Source of the DNA: Dyella amyloliquefaciens
GTDB taxonomy: Bacteria > Pseudomonadota > Gammaproteobacteria > Xanthomonadales > Rhodanobacteraceae
Assembly: GCF_004296575.1 (NCBI RefSeq)
Contig: NZ_SAYT01000001.1
Coordinates: 552,906-616,905 of the forward strand
Direction: 5' to 3'
DNA: 64,000 bases
The notes beneath the pieces are model-generated. The model worked only from the letters and a program-made list of their open reading frames with translations. It had not been told where the DNA came from and did no database searches. Of the stretch, positions 52,917 through 56,168 are shown one piece after another. Positions within the stretch are counted from its first letter, which is position 1; every line of letters starts with the position of its first letter. The position numbers and the translations under genes were made by a program.

Positions 52917-53975
52917 ATGCGGGTACGCCTCGAAGATGTAGCGCGCGCGACGGGCGTCTCGCCGAAGACGGTGTCCCGCGTCCTGAACGAGGAGCCCTCG
53001 GTCAAGGAATCCACGCGCCAGAAGGTGCTCGCGGCGATGGAGTCGATGAACTATCGGCCCAGCCCTTCCGCACGCGGACTGGCCGGCAGCCGCTCGTTCC
53101 TGGTGGCGATGTTGTATGACAACAACGACAACCCGGCCTCGACCTATCTGGCGGAAATCCAGGACGGCGTGCTCGACGCCTGCGACGCGCATCGCTACAG
53201 CATGATGGTGTGCCCGCTGCGGGTGCGCGATCAGGATTTCATCCGTCGCGTGGATGCGCTGGTGTCCGACCACCACATCGATGGCGTCATCGTCACGCCA
53301 CCGCTCACCGATCACGCGCCGCTGCTGAAGCGGCTGCAGGAACACGGCGTGCCGCACGCAAGCATCTCGCCGGTGAACCACGAAGGCGTGATCGGCGTCT
53401 GCATGGACGAGCAGAAGGCGGCCAAGGCACTGGTCGATCACCTGCTGCAGGAAGGCCACCGCCGCATTGCCTACATCGCCGGTTTCGCCACGCATGGCGC
53501 CAGCCGCTGGCGACTCAACGGCTACAAGGACGCGATGATGGCGGCGGGCATCCCCTACGACCCGAAGTACGTGGTGCAGGGCGAATTCACTTTCGGCTCC
53601 GGCGTGCTTGCGGCGCGCCAGCTGTTTTCGCTGGCTGAACCGCCCACGGCGATCTTCGCCGCGAACGACGACATGGCCGCCGGTGTCATGTGGGCCGCGA
53701 ACGAGCGTGGCCTGAAAGTGCCGCGCGACCTTTCCGTCTGCGGGTTCGACGACACGCCGCTCGCCACGCAGCTGTGGCCGCCGCTCACCACGGTGCGCCA
53801 GCCGAGCCGCGACATGGGCAAGCTCGCCGCGTTGCAGTTGATGGAATTGCTGCGCGGCCGAGGCAATGGCTTGCTGGTGCAGGTGCCGTACTCGCTGCAG
53901 CTGCGTGAATCGACGGCGCCCGCGCCGCGCGAAGCGCCGGCCAAGGGCAAGCGCAAGACGCGCGCCAGCGGTTGA
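52917..53975 (+). CDS. LacI-family transcriptional regulator
   Basis: 352 residues from ATG 52917 (GGGAGAAG upstream). N-terminal LacI helix-turn-helix and hinge: RLEDVARATGVSPKTVSRVL, NYRPSPSARGLAGSRSFLVA. The C-terminal half is a periplasmic-binding fold (DGVIVTPPLTDHAPLLKRL, AYIAGFATHGASRWRLNGYK, FDDTPLATQLWPPLTTVRQP). It would bind a sugar or a related effector. No sugar operon is adjacent in the window, so its targets are elsewhere or further off. It ends in a basic tail (KGKRKTRASG). Confidence 0.93.
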   Translation: MRVRLEDVARATGVSPKTVSRVLNEEPSVKESTRQKVLAAMESMNYRPSPSARGLAGSRSFLVAMLYDNNDNPASTYLAEIQDGVLDACDAHRYSMMVCPLRVRDQDFIRRVDALVSDHHIDGVIVTPPLTDHAPLLKRLQEHGVPHASISPVNHEGVIGVCMDEQKAAKALVDHLLQEGHRRIAYIAGFATHGASRWRLNGYKDAMMAAGIPYDPKYVVQGEFTFGSGVLAARQLFSLAEPPTAIFAANDDMAAGVMWAANERGLKVPRDLSVCGFDDTPLATQLWPPLTTVRQPSRDMGKLAALQLMELLRGRGNGLLVQVPYSLQLRESTAPAPREAPAKGKRKTRASG

Positions 53976-54033
53976 AGTCATGCGATCGCGAGCGACGATG
54001 GATGCGTCGTCGTTCTGTCATGACTAACGCAAC

Positions 54034-54057
54034 GTGCAGCACTTGCATGTGCTGCAT
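54034..54057 (+). other. Hairpin in the RsgA leader region
   Basis: GTGCAGCAC-TTGCAT-GTGCTGCAT, a 8-9 bp stem between the LacI stop and a strong ribosome site at 54096-54102. May end LacI transcription or be part of the leader. Confidence 0.45.
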
Positions 54058-54110
54058 CACGTGGCTACTCTGCGCCTCCCATCAACCCCACCAACAGGAG
54101 GAATAGAACA

Positions 54111-54155
54111 ATGATTGTTGTAGCAGCAGCCTCCGCCGGGTCGACGCGCTTCTGA
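54111..54155 (+). CDS. Putative 14-residue leader peptide before rsgA
   Basis: ATG 54111 follows the strong ribosome site AGGAGGAATAGAACA and is followed by 13 codons (MIVVAAASAGSTRF) and TGA. A perfect hairpin GCCAGCT-TTCC-AGCTGGC (54163-54180) starts 8 nt after the stop. Gene, stop and hairpin together resemble a translation-linked control element. Whether it is translated is not known. Confidence 0.4.
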   Translation: MIVVAAASAGSTRF

Positions 54156-54162
54156 TTGTCTG

Positions 54163-54180
54163 GCCAGCTTTCCAGCTGGC
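54163..54180 (+). promoter_or_regulatory. Hairpin between leader peptide and rsgA
   Basis: Perfect 7 bp stem with 4 nt loop directly after the leader stop codon, about 90 nt before the rsgA start codon. Could be an attenuator or a ribosome-responsive switch. Confidence 0.5.
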
Positions 54181-54267
54181 GCGCTTCATCTCTCCGCTTC
54201 GCACCCTGGCGATTCGTTCGGCCCCGTTTCGGTTGGCCGTCGTTCCCTTTGTCTGCAGGGTGCTTCC

Positions 54268-55320
54268 ATGTCTTTGATGTTTTCCCTCCACCAGCTCGGC
54301 TGGCGGCCTGAATATGCGCAACATTTGACGCTCGACGACTTCGAGGCGGGTTATCCCGCGCGCGTCGCGGCGGTGCATCGTGGTGGTCTCGATCTGCTCT
54401 CCTCGCGTGGGCCCGGTTCGGCCGTGGTGCCGCGCCATGTCGAGGCCGATGCCGGTATCGCCGCGGGCGACTGGGTACTGGTGGAGCATGAGGCGGATCG
54501 CGTGATCCGCTTGCTGGATCGCCAGTCGCTGCTCGTTCGCATGGCGGCAGGTGCAGATCATCGCCGCCAGTCGATCGCGGCCAACCTTGATGCGTTGTTC
54601 ATCGTGACCTCGTGCAACGACGACTTCAATGCGTCGCGCCTCGAGCGTTACCTGGCCCTGGCGTTCGATGCATCGGTCACGCCCGTATTAGTGCTTACCA
54701 AGGCTGACCTTTGCGCCGATGTGGGTGGCTACGTCTCGCTGGCTGAGCGGCTCGCGCCGTCGGTGCCCGTCGTGGCACTCGATGCCACCCACCCCGAATC
54801 AGTGGAGCAGCTGTCGCCCTGGCTATCGCCCGGCAAGACGGTGGCGTTTGTCGGTTCTTCGGGCGTGGGCAAATCCACCCTGGCCAACAGCGTGATCGGC
54901 GACGTCGTGCAGCGCACGAGGGACATCCGTGAGGATGATGCGCGTGGCCGGCATACCACCACGGCACGCGAGATGTTTGCCACGGCCAGTGGCGCGTGGG
55001 TGATCGACACGCCGGGCATGCGCGAGTTGCGGTTGGGCACGGCGGCGCCTGACCTCGGCGCGGTGTTCGATGACGTGGAGCAGTACGCCATGCAATGCCG
55101 TTTCCGCGATTGCCTGCATGAGGATGATGCGGGTTGCGCCGTGGCGCGCGCCGTCGCTGAGGGTGCATTGGATGCGCGACGCCTGGAGAACTATCGCAAG
55201 CTGCAGCGAGAGGCGGCTCACGTCCAGCGCAGTGTGCGGGAGGAGCGTGAGCATGGCCGGCAGTTCGGCAAGCTGGTTCGCGAGGCCGTTCGTACGAAGC
55301 GCAAACGCCTGGAGCGCTGA
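54268..55320 (+). CDS. rsgA: Ribosome small-subunit-dependent GTPase A
   Basis: 350 residues from ATG 54268. The circularly permuted GTPase order is present: OB-fold (about 30-95), LTKADL (G4, about 149-154), VGSSGVGKSTLAN (P loop, G1), and IDTPGMRE (G3). The C-terminal zinc site is CRFRDCLHEDDAGC. RsgA helps mature the 30S subunit. The long leader upstream contains a short translated-looking frame and a hairpin, so its expression may respond to translation. Only the GTPase gene itself is followed by a terminator. Confidence 0.94.
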   Translation: MSLMFSLHQLGWRPEYAQHLTLDDFEAGYPARVAAVHRGGLDLLSSRGPGSAVVPRHVEADAGIAAGDWVLVEHEADRVIRLLDRQSLLVRMAAGADHRRQSIAANLDALFIVTSCNDDFNASRLERYLALAFDASVTPVLVLTKADLCADVGGYVSLAERLAPSVPVVALDATHPESVEQLSPWLSPGKTVAFVGSSGVGKSTLANSVIGDVVQRTRDIREDDARGRHTTTAREMFATASGAWVIDTPGMRELRLGTAAPDLGAVFDDVEQYAMQCRFRDCLHEDDAGCAVARAVAEGALDARRLENYRKLQREAAHVQRSVREEREHGRQFGKLVREAVRTKRKRLER

Positions 55321-55391: not shown

Positions 55392-56168
55392 TTACTTGCT
55401 GGAGGCCTTGTAGGTCAGGTCGCTGCTGTAGCTGTCCACGTGCGATGAACTGCTTTCAGTGGCGTCGTTGAGCGACTTGCGCATCGCCTGAGCGTCCTGC
55501 TGGCCATACACGTTGGCAACCATCGTCCATAGCGGTGTTTCCGGATCCTTGCCCAGGTCTTCCCACGACTTGGCGGGAATGATCACGACGAAGTCCGGTG
55601 AATCGGCACCGGCATGCTGCATCTCGCCGATCATGTAGTTGTTGGGCCACTTGGCCTTGTCTGCGGCTGCGGCGATCTTCTTGATCACGTCGACAAAGGC
55701 CTCATGCGGCTCGTGACCGTTCTTAAGCTTGAAGTCGACGACCTGGATGAACGGCGACGACAGCTGCATGCCCTTGGGCATGTGGCTCAGGTCCACGCGT
55801 GCCACGACGAACCCGCTCACTTCGCTCTTGAGGTGCGGATTGACGCTTGTGCGGTAGATCTGGTCGCACGCCTTGCTCGTCTCGTGCATCGCGTCGAAGG
55901 CTGACCACGGCACCGCATCGGTGGTGTAGGAGTACGCATAGGTGTCGCCGGTTTCGTGCGACCAGGCGGTCCATGTGTACTTGAAGCCATGCTCGCTCAG
56001 GCACTGGTTGTAGCTCTTGATACCGGTTTCATAGGCCTGCTGGTCGGCCGGGGCGACATAGTCGGTGTAATCACGGATGAGCATGGGCTTGGGCGCGTCG
56101 GCAGCAACGACAGCGCTGATGCAGCAGCAGGCGGCCACGCAGGCCAGCCAGAGCGTCGATGATTTCAT
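55392..56168 (-). CDS. Secreted protein of unknown function
   Basis: 258 residues from ATG 56168 (AAGGGAGAACACC upstream). Signal peptide MKSSTLWLACVAACCCISAV to AA-DAPKP. The mature part has Cys in YNQCLSEH and KACDQIY, and a beta-rich region with VARVDLSHMPKGMQLSSPFI and SWEDLGKDPE. Not recognised. The ribosome site is strong. Separated from the upstream gene by nearly 480 bp. Confidence 0.8.
   Translation of the reverse strand: MKSSTLWLACVAACCCISAVVAADAPKPMLIRDYTDYVAPADQQAYETGIKSYNQCLSEHGFKYTWTAWSHETGDTYAYSYTTDAVPWSAFDAMHETSKACDQIYRTSVNPHLKSEVSGFVVARVDLSHMPKGMQLSSPFIQVVDFKLKNGHEPHEAFVDVIKKIAAAADKAKWPNNYMIGEMQHAGADSPDFVVIIPAKSWEDLGKDPETPLWTMVANVYGQQDAQAMRKSLNDATESSSSHVDSYSSDLTYKASSK

Follow-up and report, generated by a model that had tools for sequence, protein, structure and literature searches.

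A leader frame with competing RNA structures as a predicted translational attenuator of RsgA2, a paralogous ribosome-assembly GTPase

Introduction

Does the short frame that precedes an RsgA-type gene in Dyella amyloliquefaciens respond to translation and, if so, through which RNA structure and on behalf of which gene? RsgA matures and checks the decoding region of the 30S subunit (PMC6912228), and an original prediction, made from the letters of a 64,000-nt window (i.e., the whole stretch of DNA analyzed here), proposed that a strong Shine–Dalgarno (SD) site, a 14-codon frame and a perfect hairpin form a leader through which expression of rsgA could sense translation efficiency. It also knew of no leader of this type described for rsgA, and neither the open-access literature on RsgA/YjeQ leader peptides, rsgA2 and attenuation nor Rfam yielded a prior description; no Rfam covariance model matched at its gathering score in the window region or at 16 representative loci.

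Results

The gene downstream of the leader (54268..55320, + strand; ATG at 54268) encodes a 350-aa RsgA-type GTPase that scores 148 bits against the TIGR00157 family HMM (cut-off 100), matches RsgA chains in the PDB (E 1e-32) and carries the G motifs GSSGVGKST and DTPG in its translation. The same genome holds a core rsgA elsewhere (G000:C1:493048-494013; 40% identical), with no such leader in its upstream region, and a 100-protein tree places the core RsgA copies in one clade (support 100/100) with the Dyella gene outside it. Because a separate core copy exists and the core clade excludes the gene at 54268, we consider the latter a paralog, named RsgA2 (a ribosome small-subunit-dependent GTPase), and the predicted target was mistaken in this respect—the leader belongs to the second copy and not to the housekeeping gene. 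On the opposite strand, 55392-56168 is a conserved neighbor of RsgA2 without an NCBIfam match, and it also adjoins RsgA2 in related Dyella (L004, L005).

The leader frame (MIVVAAASAGSTRF; 14 codons, stop TGA; 54111..54155, + strand as are all leader features) is kept in relatives and follows an SD, AGGAGGA (54096..54102); a GAGG or related SD-like site precedes the frame in the compared leaders. Hairpin H (54163..54180), a perfect 7-bp stem (GCCAGCT-TTCC-AGCTGGC) that begins 7 nt after the leader stop and ends 87 nt before the RsgA2 ATG, completes the predicted trio, all of which is present. Two larger pairings share these elements. Segment A (the last leader codons, 54134..54148) pairs with segment B (54195..54211) over 14 bp, with hairpin H inside (from folding and alignment A2), while B (54201-54208) can alternatively pair with segment D (54256..54263), with hairpin C (54219..54239; scored for covariation on alignment A2) inside. 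The assignment of B draws on duplex prediction, folding and alignment, and that of D on duplex prediction, folding and masking tests on 72 leaders; D includes the RsgA2 ribosome-binding site (AGGGTG, 5 nt from the ATG). The hairpin of the original prediction is conserved and covaries, but it is only the apical part of the larger A:B helix, and the switch itself is, in our model, the competition of A:B with B:D rather than hairpin H.

A promoter-like TTGCAT - 17 nt - TACTCT (54043..54071), read from the sequence, recurs as the same stretch upstream of other Dyella leaders; a consensus scan for promoters did not flag it, and a consensus scan of 53900-54500 found no terminator-like site. The single-sequence folding energy of the leader is unremarkable (z -1.35): the signal is comparative, and single-sequence folding alone is uninformative. 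In the MFE structure, the leader SD is paired with codons early in rsgA2; this pairing was rejected, as by eye it is kept only in close relatives.

Within Rhodanobacteraceae, RsgA2 clears a threshold of E 1e-76 in 30 of 234 genomes, which, with four pattern-scan loci, gave 34 leaders for comparison. All 34 carry an SD, a frame of 13–16 codons and the identical order of elements, and both kinds of pairing (A:B and B:D) appear in their duplex predictions. Even L043, in which the sequence is wholly different, still pairs (A GCUGGCG, B CGCCAGC, D GCUGGUG); leader sequences diverge while the alternative pairings, as far as they can be predicted from sequence, persist. A scan for GAGG-N-ATGAWTGTT-N-GCCGGGYYG across 84,980 species matched 29 stretches, and every match with the full layout lies in Dyella, Frateuria, Luteibacter or Rhodanobacter, each ahead of RsgA2; the other matches (e.g., Streptomyces and Williamsia) lack the full layout and look like chance. 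The check originally proposed, i.e., conservation of frame, start, stop and structure in related genera together with compensatory stem changes, came out positive, the latter on alignment A2. Its comparison had been confined to Xanthomonadales, where the leader is indeed conserved, but conservation extends far beyond that order.

Covariation was scored for helices A:B, H and C on alignment A2 (31 sequences), with B:D left out because the alignment of D is unreliable. In these helices 91.7% of cells are paired (88.6 in shuffled alignments, 33–49 when the helices are slid), and 11 pairs have changes on both sides, against 4.6 in shuffles (0/500). Most of this covariation lies in H (5/6 scored pairs changed on both sides) and C (4/5); A:B contributes two such pairs, few because A is nearly fixed.

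Folding of the 34 family leaders without a ribosome gives a mean of 14.2 A:B and 3.0 B:D pairs, and with a ribosome footprint masking A, 2.5 and 8.3, respectively. Across 72 leaders from many lineages, which are not mutually independent, masking the frame makes the RsgA2 site less accessible by 0.070, a value that none of 40 sets of intergenic-part shuffles reaches (-0.014, sd 0.010); the effect varies by leader, and a number of leaders show little of it or the opposite sign (e.g., L007, L033, L099, L117). When pairing partners are swapped across lineages, the pairing of A is equaled in 0/2000 swaps and that of the ribosome-binding site in 2/2000 over all leaders, 58/2000 in 20 deep representatives and 125/2000 within the family, where swaps are uninformative for A because A is nearly invariant. 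The specific pairing of A is therefore supported, and the specificity of the ribosome-binding-site pairing is only modest. The predicted polarity is that an empty A allows A:B and leaves the RsgA2 site freer, whereas a ribosome on A would leave B to hide it.

The frame itself recurs well beyond chance. Rates computed from the window and locus flanks place an SD-preceded short frame starting M-(x)-[I/F]-[V/A] in 0.001–0.005 of 340-nt stretches; such a frame precedes 49 RsgA2 genes vs. 0/12 core rsgA genes. The distance from AUG to the core of A is 21 or 24 nt in 31/31 aligned leaders (four lack one codon), and the gap from the leader stop to RsgA2 occurs in all phases (8/13/10). Differences among close leaders fall 65/91/177 by codon position, favoring the third, in pairs that are not independent. 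With its strong start site, the leader is predicted to be normally translated. A specific peptide was rejected as the main constraint, since the middle of the peptide varies. All 48 leaders with Ile after the start encode it as ATT, whereas 48 of the 53 Ile codons in five window genes are ATC, and AUUGU after the start (54111-54119; all MIV-type leaders) is thus held at the nucleotide level. The pairing model gives no reason for its conservation. In some alphaproteobacterial leaders, AUUGU stands one codon later (ATGGAGATTGTC).

Related leaders of the form M-I-V-x-x-[T/S]-x-[R/P]-[A/V]... precede RsgA2 in more distant bacteria. Other gammaproteobacterial peptides include MIVVNTFRVVG, MIVFRTCRVDFS, MIVIKTFRVTE, MIVINTFRATSK and MIVVKTLRADS, and Photobacterium, Vibrio and Pseudoalteromonas have MIVFRTHSAKNVKTAR, MIVARTHPAELVKTS and MIVLLSHPVKVVARCD. 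Outside the class, Rhodobacter sp. CZR27 has MSELASLRAGAV, and MIVVTTLRAGIC and MEIVIILRAAAV come from related genomes assigned to Rhodobacterales by similarity; from sequence, the leader is likely homologous between the two classes. In several distant leaders a five-segment chain can be read, as in L149 (A CCGGGCUG, B1 CGGCCCGG, B2 GCUGGGCUUC, C GAAGCCCGAUC, D UUGAUCGAGGUUUC), and there the modeled parity is unchanged: a ribosome on A would yield B1:B2 together with C:D and so hide the site. Scanning 340 genomes across the class with a pattern returned five matches, four of them ahead of RsgA2 (reversed control, 0), and in both pattern scans (84,980 species and 340 class genomes) the full leader was found ahead of no gene but RsgA2.

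In other lineages, a recognizable leader is missing from many RsgA2 genes, and the leader label requires 14 changes on the tree; losses, gains or gene transfer are thus mixed. In this tally L083, a truncated locus, carries the leader, L109 has the same leader as its near-duplicate L108 and was set aside (so that it is drawn leaderless in the tree), and L074 and L087, with borderline frames, were excluded. Two genomes of another class (L118, L120) show an MSV(V/I)VP..QAGMT frame ~200 nt upstream of RsgA2, which may be a diverged form of the leader. An MIV-type frame (MIVPELVTIAGQCAVAGLPSLR) also lies 144 nt ahead of L090, an RsgA from a gammaproteobacterium that branches beside the core clade. 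Large plasmids, those of Rhizobium among them, commonly carry RsgA paralogs (matches in 184 plasmid records); the two inspected (L102, L103) show no recognizable MIV-type leader.

Discussion

We propose, with a probability of roughly 0.6, that the leader frame controls an attenuator acting on translation of a 30S-assembly GTPase paralog, which would be ON when elongation over the leader stops. An elongating ribosome covering A would leave B free to pair with D, keeping RsgA2 translation low, and with no ribosome on A the A:B helix would form and expose the RsgA2 ribosome-binding site; in vibrios and others, two extra segments would set A:B1 and B2:C against B1:B2 and C:D with the polarity unchanged. 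This proposal builds on the conserved frame, the mutually exclusive structures, the covariation in A:B, H and C and the predicted polarity, which sequence and computation establish, and it takes the RNA to act in vivo and the control to be translational, as both probably are. The strongest A helix begins at a median of +23 from the A of the AUG, and the footprint of a ribosome on a start codon reaches about +15 to +17. Because A starts ~23 nt after the AUG, beyond that footprint, initiation-blocked ribosomes should also give ON. Given that RsgA acts in maturing and checking the decoding region of the 30S subunit, a natural purpose would be to raise RsgA2 when competent 30S subunits or initiation are scarce (e.g., cold, starvation, initiation inhibitors), and the translation sensing envisaged in the original prediction is a role that would fit the predicted anatomy.

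The RsgA2 leader can be placed among known attenuators. In trp/his attenuation, ribosome position sets serial alternative pairings (1:2/3:4 vs. 2:3); these the RsgA2 leader shares, with five segments in the vibrio version, but it has no regulatory codon run or terminator, and its output lies at the ribosome-binding site. In erm/cat, a drug-dependent arrest peptide frees a sequestered ribosome-binding site; leader peptide and sequestered site are shared, but the RsgA2 leader peptide is variable and its predicted polarity opposite. The closest system in polarity is whiB7/wblC of actinomycetes, in which uORF translation means OFF and its disruption ON (described in PMC11550727), though it works via an intrinsic transcription terminator, and the RsgA2 leader has no terminator-like site. 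Closest in anatomy is toiL-topAI of E. coli, a proposed translation-stress sensor in which ribosome occupancy of a short translated leader sets an RNA structure that blocks or opens the ribosome-binding site downstream (PMC12121999), as is predicted here. In that system a ribosome stalled on the uORF, be it at the start or farther inside, lifts the occlusion, whereas here a ribosome past the start is predicted to occlude and an empty leader to relieve; the target also differs, and we found no sequence relation. As in erm, cat and toiL, then, a short frame that has an SD of its own lies ahead of the gene, and computation gives mutually exclusive structures, one of which occludes the target ribosome-binding site. 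Release of the site by a stalled ribosome is not what computation gives, in that masking the frame lowers accessibility, and a conserved arrest peptide is not seen, as only M-I-V and [R/P]-[A/V] recur.

These differences bear on the alternative that, with a drug or metabolite present, the nascent peptide arrests the ribosome at one set codon of the leader and so switches RsgA2, in the manner of erm, cat or toiL. Recurrence of the M-I-V start and the [R/P]-[A/V] position across lineages would suit such inducible stalling, as would the sensing of antibiotics by leaders of this kind, shown by toiL (PMC12121999), yet we judge it unlikely: the peptide middle is variable and has no codon run, the fixation of Ile2 as ATT is a nucleotide-level constraint, and by prediction a stall covering A would conceal the RsgA2 site instead of exposing it. 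A lower probability still attaches to autoregulation, i.e., RsgA2 or another protein binding the leader RNA with the frame secondary. The OB and zinc domains of RsgA bind RNA (PMC6912228) and the stems are strongly conserved, but their primary sequence is wholly different between lineages (L002 vs. L043), and frame, SD and spacing are kept while the stem sequences differ.

Could the frame encode a functional microprotein, with the RNA structure incidental? Start, stop and frame are kept, and close pairs show the third-position excess, but with 11–20 residues, a variable middle and a covarying structure specific to RsgA2, this is very improbable. We give next to no credence to chance, with a spurious short frame and hairpins arising by accident in an untranslated region of high GC content: such leaders do fold easily, and the single-sequence z is low, but recurrence in two classes, RsgA2 specificity and the covariation and shuffle tests already contradict it.

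If the attenuator reading is true, RsgA2 would be, as far as could be found, the first RsgA-family ribosome-assembly GTPase described as under leader control, across two proteobacterial classes, and its leader would tie translation status to 30S maturation in a direct and testable way. This would further account for the retention of a second RsgA in many bacteria, as a conditional copy for times when translation falters, and offer a natural reporter with which blocked initiation and stalled elongation might be told apart. Tentatively, we extend it to a sensor that would gauge free translation capacity in general and be ancestral to the RsgA2 genes of alpha- and gammaproteobacteria, with the leader acting as a strong test message: left empty when 30S subunits are scarce or blocked at the start, it might turn ON the spare 30S-maturation GTPase and close a homeostatic loop between initiation and assembly, and the AUGAUUGU start might then be a dedicated initiation signal.

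In five Dyella/Rhodanobacter species (L021, L056, L058, L062, L071), an intact leader stands ahead of a degenerate RsgA2 of 252–277 aa with its C-terminal part missing.
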